From Paramyrothecium sp. XJ0827 (Eukaryota > Ascomycota > Sordariomycetes > Hypocreales > Stachybotryaceae): a stretch of 64,000 bases of DNA. The notes under the pieces were generated by a model. The model saw only the letters and a program-made list of their open reading frames with translations. It searched no databases and was not told the origin of the DNA. The position numbers were made by a program, and so were the translations under genes. The DNA is taken from assembly GCA_020881915.1 (NCBI GenBank), contig JAJFPB010000008.1, forward strand, positions 3,286,001-3,350,000, read 5' to 3'. This document shows, piece by piece, positions 7,331 to 47,300 of this stretch; position 1 is the stretch's first letter, and the number at the start of each line of letters is the position of its first letter.

Positions 7331-9680
7331 ATGCCCGCGCACACGAATGTTCCTATCGAAGCCTTGAAATACGTGAAGAATGAAGTACCTATCGTCGGTC
7401 ATGGGATTGGATCCGAGACAGGCCTGGACCAGAAATGGCTGGGCGACCAGTTAATAGAGTTGAGAAGTCTGAACCAACCAGATCACTCTAAGGCGAGAAA
7501 GCGGCCAAGAAATGGCGACGATGACGACGACGAAAACGAAGGCGACGACGGAGGTATCCAGGATGGGAAAGAAGAGGGAAAGGGGGGGGGCACCTAAAAC
7601 AAAACAGCGCAAAGGGAGAAAAAAAAGCAAACTTGGAATGAAGCCGGCCGATACCATAATCTTCGACGAGTGTCAAGGAGAGGATACCGTCGATGAGGAC
7701 CGTAAAGGGATCGAATACTATCTATGGAAGAAAGCCCCTGAACGCACGCGATGCGCGAGAAAGAATGTGTTCGTTTCTCCCCGTTGCTATTCAATTACGA
7801 GACACAAGACTGACGATAGCGTTCGTAGTTTGAAGCAATTTAAGGTGCTAGTCCCCGGGCTAACTGCCGTGACGGCCGGCAAGACCCTTATCAACAACAC
7901 GGTATTTCACGCATACATTCAGCTGCACAACTGGAAAACCAGAAAATTCAACATGGCGCTGGAAGACGATGATGCGACCAAAGCCATACAGCGCGATGAC
8001 TCGGTGGCGGATGAGGTTCGCGCCGCGAAAAGATACCTCCGCAGAATGGACAAGACCCTCATCAAAGAAAGTGTGTGATGATACGCAGGAGGCGAAAGAA
8101 GATACATTCCTGAGTTTCTTTTCGGCTGACTTGCGTGACCATTTTAGGAGAAAAGGACACCTTCGCCACTATGCCCGCTCCTAGCGCTCCTCCCATGGAG
8201 GATGTGGATTTGAATGGCGACAATAATGTGCAGATGGTCGGCGAGCCGGCTGGGGCCCAGCCGGATGACGCGCCTGACCAGCCAGATAATGAAGAGGCAC
8301 CGAAAATTATGTGGTACGTCCTCAGCTTCCGGATACCCGAGCCTGGTCGCGGTCCGCAACCGCGAGAGACAAAGCGTGCGTGCTAATGAAACATTTACAG
8401 TTTGGTTTGCCGGGACGACACCCCAAAGGCTGATGTCGTGCGGTGTAGGAGAGACGAAGAAGACGAGAAAACTGGCACGAGAATTATGAACACCGCCATA
8501 CATGCGATATGCCGCCCGTGTCTCCGGGAACTAGCCCAAAACGCTATGACAACACCGGCAAAACGAGCCAGATGCCCAGGCGAGAAGTGTCCGGCGTTCT
8601 TCCCGGTGGAACAGTTCCAATTTCTCATCGAGCCGCAGTCCAACCTCTACGACTTCGATCTGTATAGCAACCTGTTGCGAAAGGAACTAGTGGACGATGT
8701 CCTGGGAGCGAACCCATACAACGAGGCTTGCCCCTTCTGCGACTACATCGAGAATTTCGAGGGTCTTTCCAAGAACGAGTACCCACGCTTCGAGTGCCAG
8801 AACAGCGACTGTGGCAAGCTCAGCTGCAGGTTGTGCCTAAGCTGGACTCATGATGGCAAGACGTGCGGAGAGGCCAAGATGCCAGACCTGGCAGAGGATG
8901 CAGAAGAGCAGACGCGACAGCTGACCCAGCTGCTGGACAACGCAAAGTCAGAAGCCCGGGTGCGCAGTTGCGCCCGCTGTAAGGCCGGCTTCGAGCTCGA
9001 GACCGGGTGCAACAAGATCCGATGCAAGTGTTATCACTATCAATGGTATGTATAGGCCCTGACCGCATTGCACTCCACCATCTTTGTATGCTATAGATTT
9101 CATTTACTGATGAACCGTGTGCCCCAGTTACTACTGCAGGGAGTCGCTAGTCGCGATCGAGGATGAGGACGAGATTAGGGCGCTGCAAAAGGAGAAGGAG
9201 GAGGCGAAAGATGCACTCAGGAAATTGTGCGCTCACCCCGAACGTCTCAACGTCAGCGACCACGAAGAGCAGTGTCGGCTCTTGGAAGCGGAAATCGGAA
9301 GGCTGAGGGGGGAACTCGCGTTGAAGAAACAGTTGGCAGGGGACAGGGCCTACATGCACTTCGATCGCGGCGCTCATTCGATTTACAAGAAGGACAAGAG
9401 ATGCCCTTTGTATTCCAACATTCACCAGCTTCATACCCTGAACCAGGTACAAGGCATCCTGGAAATGAAAGATTGGATCCTGGAGCACCACCCGGAACGC
9501 GTCAACAAGATTGTCTTGGATCGCCTAACGGAGAATCTGATGAGCGAGCAACACGACAGCTGGGTCGAGCTGATCTGCGAGGCTAAGTTGGACCTCGCAA
9601 AACATCCCTTTCCGGGGCCAGTACCGGCACAGGCACAGGCACAAGCGGCACAGCCGCCACAGCTACGAGGTGGAGTATGA
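7331..9680 (+). CDS. RBR (RING-IBR-RING) E3 ubiquitin ligase, four exons, frameshifted in exon 1
   Basis: Exons are 7331..8070, 8148..8313, 8401..9045 and 9128..9680. The introns (77, 87 and 82 nt) all have matching phases. The splice 8313/8401 creates a TGT codon and completes CLVC, the first RING1 cysteine pair. The splice 9045/9128 likewise completes a cysteine in CYHYQCYYC. RING1 starts near residue 302, the IBR (CPFC...CRLC) near 412 and RING2 (CARC...TGCNKIRCKC) near 492. The TGC in TGCNKI is the position of the catalytic cysteine in RBR ligases. A coiled coil (LQKEKEEAKDALRKL) and a proline/alanine-rich tail follow. Exon 1 has a poly-acidic stretch and a run of nine G (7582..7590). Reading continues only if one G is skipped, giving about 700 aa. 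That is either a sequencing error or a real disabling change. Confidence 0.75.
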
Positions 9681-11003
9681 CACCAGGAGCGGCTCCAGGC
9701 AATGTTGATGACGGCAGCAGCAGGCACCGTCGAGCAGGGGGAGGGGCGGCGATGCGGGTTCCGCCGTAAAACAACTACGCCACGCACGGGGAATTAGGAA
9801 TGCAGGGCCAGCCGGCGGCGAACCAGGCAATTATACACTAGCCCCCCCTCTCCCCTTGAACCGCGCGATTGCCAAACCCGTTGTGTACATGGAATTCATG
9901 GGCGCCGACGGCGCAAAGGCGGCCGCCCAACTTAACCAATGAGAGGAGACGACCGGAGGTCGAGGCTTATCTTTGGTCCCTATCAGTACCGGAGGGGCCG
10001 AAATCAGCGACGCGCGGAAGCAGGATGACATGTCTGGATGCCGCGTAGCCTCAGGGCCTTCGGGGCAGCGTCTCGGTGTTGCCTTAAGCCCAATTTCTTG
10101 TGCATCCCTCGAGGCTGCCTTGTACCTGACGACGTACACGAGAGTCGCCTCTCTATACGCGATGATGATCGTCATGACAGCCGGATCAGCCTACATAGCC
10201 ACGTGCGCGCCGCAAACTTCGTCCGCCCTATGTGGTTTTTAGATTGCCAATAGCTCCGTCCTTCACGCCCATTTCGGGATAGGGCCGTGTCAAGTCCTCC
10301 AGAGATACGCTCTGCAGGCCCCCAGTTACCAAATATGAGTTCCACAGACGGCGTAAGGCGGGCACGCGTCTCGCACGCATCAACTTCGTGTCTTCGTACA
10401 AGGTGGGGGTGCAATGATACGATGGCCTCATAAGTACGGATCAATTACTAGCTCCTCTCTACACAGTTGTTGATATGATGAGCTAGTGGGTATAGATGCC
10501 ATAGATAACCAATTTATCTCCTCCTGCCAAACTTGAACCTCCTCAACTCTTCGTCACTGTCATCATCCTCTGTGTCACCTCCATCTTCGCCCTTTCGACC
10601 CGCCCCTGCCATTTCAAATGTTCGCTTCTGGCCTCGGGTATTATACCGACAGACACTATTCGTTCTTGGAATACGACTTTCGTCTGTGATTTGCTGTTCC
10701 GATACCTTGGCTGGTTCAGAGCGCGTTCCTGGATCGATTTGCGTTTCCTTCTCAGTGGTGACTTGTCTATATATGTTGCGAATCTCAGGCACGGAGATGA
10801 AGGAGATATTCACATCATATCGTTCCTTGTCGATTCCCTTCATTGCAGTAGCGAGTTCTTCCTGGACAGACTTTGATGGTTTGTTTGCTTAGATCTTTGA
10901 GGATATCACTGAGAGCTCGCAGTGATTTTTGGTCAAGGCTTTCGAGCAAATCCCTGAATGAGGATTCGGCAGCGATAACCTGTATGCGGTTTTACTCATT
11001 AGA
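7706..11003 (+). repeat. Left arm of a large inverted duplication
   Basis: This block reappears in reverse orientation at about 43696..47140. It begins inside exon 1 of the RBR gene (at AAAGGGATCGAAT) and ends inside the intron of the H3-mimic gene (at TCTAATGAGT on its coding strand). RBR exons 2-4 are nearly identical between arms, with about eight amino-acid changes. The converging gene differs at roughly one residue in seven. The left arm lacks two stretches of about 200 bp that the right arm carries between the two genes. Confidence 0.85.
9681..10513. other. Intergenic between two converging genes
   Basis: No gene. This is the shared 3' flank of the RBR gene and the H3-mimic gene, and it includes an R1-type piece at about 10010..10080. 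A CAGTACC motif at about 9987 marks one edge of sequence that is present in the right arm and missing here. Confidence 0.5.
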
Positions 11004-11132
11004 GGAAGAAACCGATCAGCGGGTTCGACTTACTTTGAGGTCTCGCGGGGCGGCTTTACCTCCAGTTGATTGCATGTTGTCCCGCTTCACGCCGCCTCTT
11101 GATGCCCGAGGTGTCTGTTTGGTTCGCGCCAT
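10514..11132 (-). CDS. Histone H3 N-terminal tail mimic, two exons
   Basis: Exon 1 (11034..11132) encodes 33 residues starting M-ARTKQT-PRAS, then GGVKR, then STGGKAAPR. ARTKQT is identical to residues 1-6 of mature histone H3, including K4. STGGKAAPR matches H3 10-17 (STGGKAPR) with one added alanine. H3 K9 is replaced (PRAS instead of ARKS). The 54-nt intron has GTAAGT, a CTAAT branch and ACAG. Exon 2 (10514..10979) encodes a helical segment (FRDLLESLDQKSLRALSDIL) but no histone fold. Relative to the inverted copy, a 4-bp duplication near 10880..10888 shifts the frame, so the current product would be 87 aa. The rest of exon 2 is the basic/acidic tail seen intact at 43720..44175. Function as a decoy or reader ligand is inference. 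Confidence 0.75.
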
Positions 11133-12825
11133 TACATCGGGAAAGGTGAATCGGGAGAAGTTGAGCATCTGGTACAGGAGGGCTAGTCATGGTCTTTTGT
11201 AGGAACCGACATCAAGACTGACCCAAACCTAAATAGAAACGTTGCAGCCTGCCCATTAGCCAAAGCCCTGAACCTGCAAGAATCCTGAATGAAAAGGATC
11301 GTCTGCTCCACCCGCTACGCAACCCCCAATCCCCTTGTTATCATTCATGCCAACTGGCCTGAGAACCCATGTAAATCCATCCCCTATAGGTCCAACACAA
11401 TCACACGATCATCATCTATTGGATCTTACGCGGCCTGTCCGACTGGCATATCGGCCTTGGGAACAGGCCGACCTAGTCCAAACTAGGGTGACATGTCCGA
11501 GTGTAATCAGTCCCGCCTGTGGCTGGTTCTGAAACTCCATTAGTTGATGGCGCCAGTCAACTCCAGGTCCCCTTGTGCAAGCATCAGGCTCCTATCGGAG
11601 GCCCGACGGCTACTCCGGTTGTGTTGCTGGCGTGTAGTTCGTATTGTCCAAGTGGAGTGAGCTGTTGTCTGACTCATAAGATTAGGCCGACTCAGTAAGG
11701 GGTTCGGGTCAGTGTGGCATATCTTGATGTAACGGTGTAATCCTAGGGGCCAAGGTGCAGCGCGGCGGAAGCAGAATGACATGCCTGGATGTAATGGCAT
11801 AGCCTCGGGGGCGTCTCCTATTTCTTTTGGTCTGTCCCTGATGACGAATACGAGTCGATTAGTTTCGATCCGCGATGACGATCGTTAGTCCAGGGGATGT
11901 GATCCACAGAAAAGTGTCAATCTAACATTTCCGCTTCGGTTACTCCGGTACAATGGCTATTTGCGTGTGCGTAGGACTTCATCAGGCAGAATTGCACATG
12001 GGGGATCAACCGACAAGCGGATCGTCTGATCTTAATGCCTGAACCACTAAGACTACCTCCTATCCGGCATGGTTCCGTCCCCTTGCATTACGCCTAATCG
12101 CGTAAGAATCCATGTTCTAGGCATGAGGTCACGATGAATGGGTAGTAGGATGATGCACAATCTCAGGGGCAACGGCCAATACGGCCGTTATGATTACGCC
12201 CATCCATCCAGCCATCTAATGGAGTGTTGTAGTCTCAGGGGCTATTGGCCGGCAGCTTGCCGTTAGATTCGCTGTGATGCACCGGGCGAATGCGGTGAGG
12301 CTTTTCGCCCTCATTCCAATCCTTCCTGTCAAATGCATTCTATTCGGTACCCCTCCTTCATCCTTCCACCATTCACCGTCCACCCATCTTTACGTCTTGC
12401 AGCCAATCAGTATCAGCAGGGAAAGAATTAAAAGAAATCCGTAGGCAACCATAAGCCAGCATATCGTGAGAAGATTGTTCGAAGTCGTGATGTTGCTCCC
12501 AGCCACCTCTGCTGAACCGGTCTGAAGCTCGGAGTCTCGGTGGCTATGCTCATGATTCACGGTGCACAGGAAGGGGTTAGAGCGCGTACGTGGCCTGTGG
12601 CTTGGGAGAGAGAAAACGGTTCATCATCCTGGCTCGCGCCATTTCAGCCAGACGCCGAAGCAGGATGACATGCCGTCGGATTCAACATGATGCACAGACT
12701 CAGGGGTAACGGGGCAGCAAGGACTTCGCCGCTCTGGTTCAAGAGCTGAGGGCGTGTACCTAAACTGTCAGTCAACACCGTTCACTCCTTTTCCACAATG
12801 CTGCGCCCGTCCCCTCCTGACTTAT
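11133..12825. other. Gene-free repeat-rich interval
   Basis: No supported gene. It contains R1-like pieces at about 11760..11815 and 12120..12260 and a fuller copy at 12630..12745. Repeated CTCAGGGG and GATGCAC motifs occur throughout. The short frames here have no splice partners. Confidence 0.45.
12630..12745. repeat. Dispersed repeat, copy 2 of family R1
   Basis: Matches 3340..3480 in the order AGACGCCGAAGCAGG, ATGCC(G/A)TCGGA, ATGCACA and CTCAGGGG(C/T)AACGGG. It lies directly upstream of the small gene at 12826, so it may contribute to that gene's promoter region. Confidence 0.5.
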
Positions 12826-13305
12826 ATGAACCACTTTTCTGCAACTTTCAAAATCCTGAACTGTCTCCTACGACAACGAAACCGCGAGTCCTTTCATCTC
12901 TTCGCCGTACTCAGCAACACTATGTACTTAGAGCCATCTTCTCAGCAATTGGCTCATGTTATAGACATTACACCAGTAAGAACCCGGTTCTAAAACGAAA
13001 CTGCTGAGTATGGTCTGACTCTCTAGATTGAGTTGAAACGCAGGATTCTGGATGAACTCATCAGAATTTTTGGCAGCAACATACCGTCTCAATGGATGGA
13101 GAACAGCACAGAATTCTCCGATACACTTATTTCCAAGATAAAGAGACCAGAAACGACCGAAAAAGATGTCAGATTGCTCTCAGAACTTCTGTGCAGGTGC
13201 CTATTATTGGAGACATTCTTGGCGACAGCAGAGGATATATTGAATCTTAAGCAATTCCTAGGTCTCCATGGCGGTCCGGTTACTTCGGACGGCACATCAG
13301 CATGA
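12826..13305 (+). CDS. Small two-exon hypothetical protein, 142 aa
   Basis: Exon 1 is 12826..12975 and exon 2 is 13027..13305. The 51-nt intron starts GTAAGA and ends CTGACTCTCTAG, and both sides are in phase 0. An upstream ATG at 12798 is in another frame and does not fit the splice. The product is mostly helical (IELKRRILDELIRIFGSN, KDVRLLSELLCRCLLLETFL) without recognised motifs or signal peptide. An alternative start is the in-frame ATG at 12922. Family unknown. Confidence 0.5.
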
Positions 13306-13708
13306 AAGATTCTAAAGGAGATCTCGAGCGATGGTGCGGACTGAATATGTGGGGTGCAAAAATGATAAGAGGCCGAATTGGGGCCAAGCAAGCAGCCGCA
13401 ACGAAGGAGGTTTCGAAGAGGAGGTTAACAAGAAATAGCGTTGAAGATATCATATCTCCCAAGTACACCGTCAAATGATTTCCGGCTCTCCTTGTTCTTT
13501 TCCATGTGTATTTCTCGACCTTCGTTATCAGATGATTCCCAGCTATCCTCGGCTTCATAGAAGTAAACAAGAGCTCTAAGAAATAATACGAACTTCGCGT
13601 TTATTTACTTCCCCCTTCTATAGACCTCCTCTCCATGGTAGCATCTGTCCAAAAGTGATCCTATCTATGATAGTTAAAAATTGCGCAAGCAATTTGGTAC
13701 AGGACAGG
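13306..13708. other. Intergenic, no supported feature
   Basis: This stretch lies between the 3' ends of two small genes that face each other. I see no motif or gene in it. Confidence 0.4.
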
Positions 13709-43719: not shown

Positions 43720-44175
43720 GTTATCGCTGCCGAATCCTCATTCAGGGATTTGCTCGAAAGCCTTGACCAAAAATCACTGCGAGCTCTCAGTGATATCCTC
43801 AAAGATCTAAGCAAACCATCAAAGTCTGTCCAGGAAGAACTCGCTGTTGCATTGAGGGTATTCGGCGAGGAACGATATAATGTGAATATCTCCTTTATCC
43901 CAGTGCCTGAGATTCGCAACATATATGGACAAGTCACCACTGAGAAGGAAAAGCAAATCGATCCAGGAACGCGCTCTGCACCAGCCAAGGTATCGGAACA
44001 GCAAATCACAGACGAAAGTCGTATTCCAAGAACGACTAGTGTCGGTCGATATGAGACCCGAGGCCAGAAGCGAACACATGAAATGGCAAGGGCGGGTCGG
44101 ATGGGCGAAGATGGAGGTAACACAGAGGATGATGACTGTGACGAAGAGTTGTTCAAGTTTGGCAGGAGGCGATAA
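43720..44175 (+). pseudogene. H3-mimic gene copy lacking the tail exon
   Basis: Starts at the same ACAG|GTT acceptor as exon 2 of the gene at 10514..11132. It keeps an uninterrupted frame of 151 codons: FRDLLESLDQKSLRALSDIL, SKSVQEELAVALRVFGEERY, a linker with ITDESRIPRT, a basic RGQKRTHEMARAGR and an acidic/basic end (EDDDCDEELFKFGRRR). It lacks the exon with ARTKQT, because the duplication starts within the intron. It shows what the body of the mimic looked like before the 4-bp insertion in the left copy. The first in-frame ATG is well inside exon 2, so a normal product is unlikely. Confidence 0.7.
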
Positions 44176-45090: not shown

Positions 45091-45172
45091 GTGGCGTGGT
45101 TGTTTTACGGCGGAACCCGCATCGCCGCCCCTCCCCCTGCTCGACGGTGCCTGCCTGGAGCCGCTCCTGGTG

Positions 45173-47140
45173 TCATACTCCACCTCGTAGCTGTGGCGGC
45201 TGTGCCGCTTGTGCCTGTGCCTGTGCCGGTACTGGCCCCGGAAAGGGATGTTTTGCGAGGTCCAACTTAGCCTCGCAGATCAGCTCGACCCAGCTGTCGT
45301 GTTGCTCGCTCATCAGATTCTCCGTTAGGCGATCCAAGACAATCTTGTTGACGCGTTCCGGGTGGTGCTCCAGGATCCAATCTTTCATTTCCAGGATGCT
45401 TTGTACCTGGTTCAGGGTATGAAGCTGGTGAACGTTGGAATACAAAGGGCATCTCTTGTCCTTCTTGTAAATCGAATGAGCGCCGCGATCGAAGTGCATG
45501 TAGGCCCTGTCCCCTGCCAACTGTTTCTTCAACGCGAGTTCCCCCCTCAGCCTTCCGATTTCCGCTTCCAAGAGCCGACACTGCTCTTCGTGGTCGCTGA
45601 CGTTGAGACGTTCGGGGTGAGCACACAATTTCCTGAGTGCATCTTTCGCCTCCTCCTTCTCCTTTTGCAGCGCCCTAATCTCGTCCTCATCCTCGATCGC
45701 GACTAGCGACTCCCTGCAGTAGTAACTGGGGCACACGGTTCATCAGTAAATGAAATCTATAGCATACAAAGATGGTGGAGTGCAATGCGGTCAGGGCCTA
45801 TACATACCATTGATAGTGATAACACTTGCATCGGATCTTGTTGCACCCGGTCTCGAGCTCGAAGCCGGCCTTACAGCGGGCGCAACTGCGCACCCGGGCT
45901 TCTGACTTTGCGTTGTCCAGCAGCTGGGTCAGTTGTCGCGTCTGCTCTTCTGCATCCTCTGCCAGGTCTGGCATCTTGGCCTCTCCGCACGTCTTGCCAT
46001 CATGAGTCCAGCTTAGGCACAACCTGCAGCTGAGCTTGCCACAGTCGCTGTTCTGGCACTCGAAGCGTGGGTACTCGTTCTTGGAAAGACCCTCGAAATT
46101 CTCGATGTAGTCGCAGAAGGGGCAAGCCTCGTTGTATGGGTTCGCTCCCAGGACATCGTCCACTAGTTCCTTTCGCAACAGGTTGCTATACAGATCGAAG
46201 TCGTAGAGGTTGGACTTCGGCTCGATGAGAAATTGGAACTGTTCCACCGGGAAGGACGCCGGACACTTCTCGCCTGGGCATCTGGCTCGTTTTGCCGGTG
46301 TTGTCATAGCGTTCCGGGCTAGTTCCCGGAGACAAGGGCGGCATATCGCATGTATGGCGGTGTTCATAATTCTCGTGCCAGTTTTCTCGTCTTCTTCGTC
46401 TCTCCTACACTGCACGCCATCAGCCTTTGGGATGTCGTCCCGGCAAACCAAACTGTAAATGTTTCATTAGCACGCTTTGTCTCTCGCGGTTGTGGACCGC
46501 GACCAGGCTCGGGTATCCGGAAGCTGAGGACCTACCACATAATTTTCGGTGCCTCTTCATTATCTGGCTGGTAAGGCGCGTCGTCCGGCTGGGGCCCAGC
46601 CGGCTCGCCGACCATCTGCACATTATTGTCGCCATTCAAATCCACATACTCCATGGGAGGAGCGCTAGGAGCGGGCATAGCGGCGAAGGTGTCCTTTTCT
46701 CCTAGAATGGTCACGCAAGTCAGCCGAGAAAAGAATTCAGGAATGTCTCTTCTTTCGCCTCCTGCGTATCATCACACACCTTCGTTGATGAGGGTCTTGT
46801 CCACTCTGCGGAGGTATCTTTTCGCGGCGCGAACCTCATCCGCCACCGAGTCATCGCGCTGTATGGCTTTGGTCGCATCATCGTCTTCCAGCGCCATGTT
46901 GAATTTTCTGGATTTCCAGTTGTGCAGCTGAATGTATGCGTGAAATACCGTGTTGTTGATAAGGGTCTTGCCGGCCGTCACGGCAGTTAGCCCGGGGACT
47001 AGCACCTTAAATTGCTTCAAACTACGAACGCTATCGTCAGTCTTGTGTCTCGTAATTGAATAGCAACGGGGAGAAACGAACACATTCTTTCTCGCGCATC
47101 GCGTGCGTTCAGGGGCTTTCTTCCCTAGATAATATTCGAT
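45173..47140 (-). pseudogene. RBR E3 ligase, second copy, 5' truncated
   Basis: Exon 4 is 45173..45725, exon 3 is 45808..46452, exon 2 is 46536..46701, and the rest of exon 1 runs from 46780 to about 47140. Introns are 82, 83 and 78 nt with the same junctions as the left copy. RING1, IBR and RING2 are all intact, including the catalytic cysteine position in TGCNKIRC. Differences from the left copy cluster in the RING1 region (for example T to I and F to S), with the next 138 codons identical. The original start codon, acidic region and promoter are missing. The first in-frame ATG would be well inside exon 1 or exon 2, so expression would depend on a new promoter at 47.1-47.3 kb. Confidence 0.75.
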
Positions 47141-47300
47141 CCCTTTAGGGAGTTAAGATAAGCTTTTATCGAATTTTTCTTGGTGCTCCTCTTCAGTACA
47201 TACAAACAAGGCCTTCTTCTGCAAAGTCTCTCGTAGGCCGCCCTCTTCTCATCTCCAGGATCAAAGGCGCACGTAGGACGGAGCCGAGTTCAGTTTAAAT

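Follow-up and report, generated by a model that had tools for sequence, protein, structure and literature searches.

A short exon on the minus strand of the 64,000-nucleotide stretch analysed here (hereafter the window) translates as MARTKQTPRASRGGVKRDNMQSTGGKAAPRDLK, a sequence that resembles the tail of histone H3, and is followed by an intron and a non-histone body (Table 1). The initial annotation described an H3-like first exon at 11034-11132; that exon is real and is joined to a body of this kind, but it lies on the minus strand, read from 11132 to 11034, and the gene copy in the window is broken. The plus strand over the same interval contains stops. The body reading frame opens at the intron acceptor, while exon 1 read without splicing runs into a TGA within the intron. 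The proposed 54-nt intron (GT-AG at 11033-10980) is borne out at the level of sequence, as the GT and AG are conserved in all three copies of exon 1 found in the genome, with intron lengths of 54, 54 and 55 nt.

Table 1. Features of the H3-like gene, its second body copy and the adjoining genes in the window.
Feature	Position	Strand	Remarks
Exon 1, MARTKQTPRASRGGVKRDNMQSTGGKAAPRDLK, H3-tail-like	11034..11132	-	without 9 nt found in the C4 and C14 3.466-Mb copies
12-codon in-frame extension from upstream ATG (MLNFSRFTFPDV)	11133..11168	-	start codon ambiguous
54-nt intron, GTAAGT...CATACAG	10980..11033	-	aligned with two other copies
Exon 2 as translated in the window copy	10815..10979	-	premature TGA past frameshift; spliced product 87 aa
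Remaining body, shifted to another reading frame	10514..10888	-	124 codons to TAA
Second body copy, without exon 1	43720..44175	+	frame intact; similarity from about 43693, inside the intron
IBR/RING-type gene, tail to tail with the H3-like gene	7700..9701	+	inverted-repeat arm
IBR/RING-type gene, second copy, adjoining the body-only copy	45152..47150	-	inverted arms 97-99% alike

After a methionine that precedes ARTKQT, as it does in H3 itself, 10 of the 13 residues are identical to H3 1-13, and these are followed by a degenerate STGGKA(A)PR block beyond which the likeness has diverged. The equivalent of K4 is kept and that of K9 is lost, since H3 position 9 is occupied by alanine, in line with the initial annotation, which noted a kept K4 and a changed K9 context. 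Its view that K14 is kept holds only in part, as the second block reads STGGKAAPR where H3 has STGGKAPR, and this one additional alanine means that the K14 context is GKAAP instead of GKAP and is therefore not exactly retained.

Within the assembled genome (51.8 Mb, 15 contigs) we identified at least three copies of exon 1 and at least four of the body, both counts being lower bounds. Relative to the other copies, the window copy carries a 4-nt insertion near 10880-10889 of exon 2, a frameshift that is visible only by this comparison; its spliced product stops after 87 residues, and its exon 1 is short by 9 nt relative to both other exon-1 copies. An intact member at G000:C4:691619-692233 encodes a protein of 187 aa, and a third copy, on C14 from 3466518, is open over 203 aa with Trp replacing Arg at H3 position 8. 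The expectation that homologues would begin with ARTKQT holds for all three exon-1 copies of the genome, but one body copy, also in the window and with its frame intact, has no exon 1 (Table 1). Between the C4 and C14 copies, similarity amounts to 96.9% over the upstream 375 nt, 95.4% in exon 1, 93.7% in exon 2 and 88.9% in the intron, the upstream flank being as alike as the two exons and the intron less so. The open exon-1 copies on C4 and C14 differ by 5 synonymous and 23 non-synonymous changes, giving a dN/dS of 1.385 that is not different from 1 (Fisher p 0.65), and over all pairs computed dN/dS ranged from 1.38 to 1.49. The gene in the window is best explained as one decayed copy within a small family that duplicated recently and has so far been found only in this genome.

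The distance to the end of contig C14 is 218 kb for the window copy and 49 kb for the third copy; for the C4 copy, on a contig of 1.02 Mb, the distance to the contig end is 331 kb. In the last 10 kb, TTAGGG outnumbers CCCTAA by 26 to 0 on C14 and by 18 to 1 on C4; the excess at the C14 end places the C14 copies in a chromosome-end region, while the position of the C4 copy is less clear. A gene with an IBR-type RING match (24.0 bits, just under the Pfam cutoff of 24.3) adjoins three of the four body copies, and a fourth occurrence of this gene, on C8, has no H3-like gene within the flank examined. The two arms of the window that carry it (Table 1) form an inverted segmental duplication, which is also found on C4 and C8. 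An ORF upstream of the H3-like gene, at 13029-13306 on the plus strand, is part of a family with six matches, which are distributed over C12 and C14. Elsewhere in the window, an ORF at 1240-2361 on the minus strand matches the chromodomain weakly, at 20.1 bits where the Pfam cutoff is 25.1. The initial annotation had taken chromodomain and SUMO-linked neighbours as a hint of a chromatin-directed role; the chromodomain and IBR-type RING matches both fall below their cutoffs, none of the 15 window ORFs scanned matched a SUMO-related family, and the argument from genomic context is weak.

We next consider how far the likeness to H3 exceeds chance. Under a first-order model built from window composition, MARTKQT is expected 0.040 times per genome; for an ATG after which 10 or more of the next 13 residues agree with H3 1-13, the expectation is 0.00024. 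A degenerate MARTKQT pattern gave five matches in the genome and none in the reversed control: four fall on H3 and the three family copies, and the fifth on a further gene, located on C8. The looser pattern A[R/S]TKxT, which has no methionine anchor and leaves the Q free, is at chance level, with 120 matches versus 118 in the reversed control. The alignment of the intact copy's exon 1 with the H3 tail reached a score of 67, whereas the best of 2000 shuffled sequences scored 55. Taken together, these sequence statistics make chance a very unlikely origin for an exon of this H3-like kind joined to a non-histone body. At residues identical to H3, codons agree with those of the genome's own H3 gene at 2 of 10 and 2 of 8 positions (4 of 18 in total), a disagreement that makes recent capture of an H3 exon unlikely. 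The codon pattern would be better explained by convergence or by an ancient origin with selection at the peptide level.

In the intact 187-aa protein, a basic, H3-tail-like segment of 36 residues precedes a helical bundle some 80 residues long, and the remainder is a charged, probably disordered tail. Pfam returned no family at E<=10 for this protein, the predicted structure of its body is a small helical bundle, and comparison of that model with known folds gave no significant match, in agreement with the earlier view that the body lacks a histone fold. A search of the genome with full-length H3 at E<=10 yielded 10 matches, none of them at the family copies. On C4, two H3-core copies (G000:C4:24170 and C4:489751) are about 75-77% identical to H3, and in both a long proline-/serine-rich stretch replaces the H3 tail. 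In a protein database that includes many fungal proteins, a search restricted to candidates of 0.55-1.75 times the query length provided 153 candidates for the H3-like family, none of them at E<=1.

The further gene on C8 (C8:685917) contains a 62-nt intron and encodes a 293-aa protein with the start MARTKQTAKR, for which 63 homologues were found in the protein database at E<=0.01, from sources that include Hypoxylon, Xylaria, Apiospora, Colletotrichum, Aspergillus, Podospora (P. comata and P. didyma), Trichoderma and unnamed metagenomes. The body of these proteins, here called ABM-like, matches the ABM family (PF03992) at 25.4 bits in P0030, above the cutoff of 23.1, with the C8 protein itself (18.3 bits) and P0002 (15.1 bits) falling below it. 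Twenty of the 63 were left out of the residue counts because they had no tail and [T/S]W[T/I]RF block near the start; these were short or different gene models and one longer protein. Among the remaining 43, the H3 residue is found in 42, 41, 32, 37, 25, 26, 29 and 24 proteins at positions 1 to 8, respectively, and in only 5 at position 9, such that the commonest residues at positions 1-8 spell ARTKQTAR, identical to H3 1-8. The start MARTKQTA occurs in 15 of the 43 and MARTKQTARKS in one. A diverged ABM-like stretch with the start MARTRKTAR and a stop codon inside the match is present at G000:C8:4204593. The initial annotation knew of no described fungal protein with an H3-like start on another body; our literature search agrees, although H3-like N termini do occur in public fungal proteins that have not been described.

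The H3 search of the genome also identified C10:4977853 (E 0.126), a long ORF containing LVTHAARKSAPSTGRVHK, whose own H3-tail-like segment, THAARKSAPSTGRVHK, is internal. Scoring of 7992 candidates provided 576 homologues of this protein, several of which are named reverse-transcriptase proteins by their source; the best match among the homologues listed is from Paramyrothecium foliicola, at 79%, and puts the host close to that genus, of the family Stachybotryaceae. A profile of 46 members of this family, hereafter RVT-like, matched RNA-dependent DNA polymerase with an E value of 7.3e-5 and H3 chains at about 0.03, and RVT_1 was found, below cutoff only, in 3 of the 11 members scanned. When each of the best 120 of the 576 homologues was compared with controls consisting of one shuffled and one reversed sequence per protein, the H3-tail score exceeded every control for 59 and did not for 61. 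In those 59 the segment occupies one site, starting at residues 393-481. Also among the best 120, 35 contain at least 10 consecutive H3 residues, and the longest identity to H3 is 31 residues, in the Clonostachys protein P0087. A literature search found no description of an H3-like segment in RVT-like proteins. The only other match in the genome to the pattern AARK[S/T]AP is at G000:C11:640026 (AARKTAP), with none in the reversed control. The name RVT-like recalls rvt, a class of cellular genes that includes one of Neurospora (PMC3520738); the two are likened by name alone.

Neither of these families contains the gene studied here. The [T/S]WTRF block of the ABM-like family is absent from the 187-aa protein, a search of the genome with an ABM-like protein gave four matches, all on C8 and none at the H3-like family, and Pfam revealed no reverse-transcriptase-like core in the 187-aa protein. 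The product of the H3-like gene is thus not a histone and stands outside both the ABM-like and the RVT-like families.

Where translation of the H3-like gene begins is relevant to any role for its tail. In the window and C4 copies, a second ATG lies in frame 12 codons upstream without an intervening stop, which renders the start codon ambiguous and means that the H3-like tail might be internal to the protein. The corresponding path in the third copy hits a TGA after five codons, and only the MARTKQT start yields a long frame; the MARTKQT start is open in three copies, two of which also have the upstream in-frame ATG. The bases at -3 and +4 are G and G for the inner ATG and C and C for the upstream one, and G at both positions is a favourable start context. 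An out-of-frame ATG TAA, ATGTAATG, overlaps the MARTKQT start codon at window positions 11130-11137 on the minus strand and is found in all three exon-1 copies.

The reading that we favour, tentatively, is that the family encodes a putative, lineage-restricted H3-tail mimic, probably aimed at readers of the H3K4 side. Were translation to start at MARTKQT, the intron to be spliced and the methionine to be removed, the protein would expose a free A-R-T-K-Q-T N terminus. In H3, A1-R2-T3-K4 is read by PHD fingers, LSD1-type demethylases and K4 methyltransferases, and an exposed ARTKQT may engage such binders of the H3 N terminus, in which case the mimic could act as a hook that recruits these proteins or as a decoy that occupies them. 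GCN5-type enzymes favour GKxP; with alanine at K9 and GKAAP around K14, the protein is unlikely to act through K9 methylation, and its acetylation at K14 is doubtful. This reading is supported by a likeness to H3 far above chance, by the intact 187-aa and open 203-aa copies, and by amino acids that match H3 while their codons do not, which is what retention of, or convergence on, the peptide rather than the DNA would produce. That the unrelated ABM-like family has the same pattern at its N terminus lends general plausibility to a fungal mimic of this type. Function is placed in doubt by the lack of any sign of selection on the protein, by the lack of a homologue in the database searched and by the upstream ATG in two of three copies, and further by the one copy without exon 1 and the one that is frameshifted; as no selection on the protein can be seen, we rate the hook or decoy model for this family somewhat below an even chance.

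A young, nearly neutral family of subtelomeric ORFs without function, in which the likeness to H3 is coincidental or inconsequential, would account for the dN/dS of about 1.4 in all pairs computed, for the broken copy and the copy without exon 1, for the absence of a homologue at E<=1 among 153 database candidates and for the chance-level count of A[R/S]TKxT without a methionine anchor. We consider this explanation somewhat less likely than the mimic. Against it stand the genome-wide expectation of 0.00024 for an ATG with 10 or more of 13 H3 residues, the alignment score that none of 2000 shuffles matched, and two copies with an open frame and open splice sites. The H3-like stretch may instead be used but internal, with translation starting at the upstream ATG (MLNFSRFTF[P/L]DV-MARTKQT...) and, as in the RVT-like segment, no free N terminus. 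The upstream ATG of the window and C4 copies and the precedent of internal H3-tail segments in another fungal family are consistent with such a product, which the early TGA in the third copy, the base context favouring the inner ATG and the want of a reason to keep the methionine of H3 make improbable.

Passive carriage of an exon captured from the histone H3 gene, or from another gene bearing an H3 tail, is quite improbable. The alignment with H3 1-30 is collinear, with the score of 67 given above, and the two H3-core copies on C4 with other N-terminal parts indicate that pieces of the H3 gene do rearrange in this genome. However, the codon agreement at only 4 of 18 shared residues would make any capture old, and an old, passively carried exon should not retain ARTKQT; the intron is in phase 0 here versus phase 1 for the first intron of the H3 gene, and neither the RVT segments (best score 64) nor the ABM-like starts (best 45) match exon 1 better than H3 does (67). 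The H3K4-side mimic remains our working interpretation; the function of the window family is plausible but unproven, and the wider fungal pattern is the stronger result.

Concerning that pattern, we see about an even chance that filamentous ascomycetes have repeatedly and independently made use of H3-tail mimicry, at the N termini of ABM-like proteins, inside RVT-like proteins and in the young duplicated family described here. ABM-like proteins share with this family the N-terminal residues of H3, a kept K4, a mostly lost K9 and a non-histone body, whereas their body is a different one (with a weak ABM match), they are widespread in Ascomycota and they have no STGGK block. RVT-like proteins also show an H3-tail resemblance in a non-histone fungal protein, but at about 970 aa they carry it as an internal and longer segment (up to 31 identical residues among those listed) in which K9 and K27 are often kept. 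N-terminal mimics that keep the K4 side and lose K9 could serve as hooks or decoys for H3K4 readers, while RVT-like segments that keep K9 and K27 could undergo methylation and be recognized in the manner of heterochromatin. In the literature surveyed, histone mimicry is described for viral proteins, for transcription factors of animals and for H3K9-type targets in mammals. If true, fungal mimics would provide genetically tractable cases, and in fungi other proteins might also be detected by antibodies or readers that were raised against H3 tails. The window gene, its own function being only putative, is an example of how an H3 mimic may arise in a fast-evolving duplicated region. Together, the two unrelated fungal families with H3-tail look-alikes suggest that fungal histone mimicry of undescribed kinds may exist.

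Among known mimics, those of the H3K9 type (ARKS), which are methylated by EHMT1 and EHMT2 (PMC10611923), resemble the fungal family in being H3-like linear motifs in non-histone proteins and differ in that their methylated lysine is absent from the fungal family, which has alanine at position 9. The histone mimic of influenza NS1, as summarized in a review (PMC12937675), resembles the H3 N-terminal tail around the K4 site and does so outside a histone; it is located at the carboxy terminus and acts in the host cell, whereas the putative fungal mimic is fungus-encoded and lies at or near the N terminus. The SNAG N termini of GFI1, SNAI1 and their relatives occupy the substrate pocket of LSD1 as mimics of the H3 tail (PMC5896174); in the fungal family, too, a non-histone protein started at MARTKQT would open with a short, basic stretch that stands in for that tail. 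SNAG segments are H3-like by structure and binding more than by sequence, while the first six residues of the fungal segment are those of H3; SNAG proteins are animal transcription factors, and the fungal family has an orphan helical-bundle body whose binding is only putative. If it is functional, the H3-like family may, by analogy, work in the manner of the H3-tail mimics SNAG and NS1.
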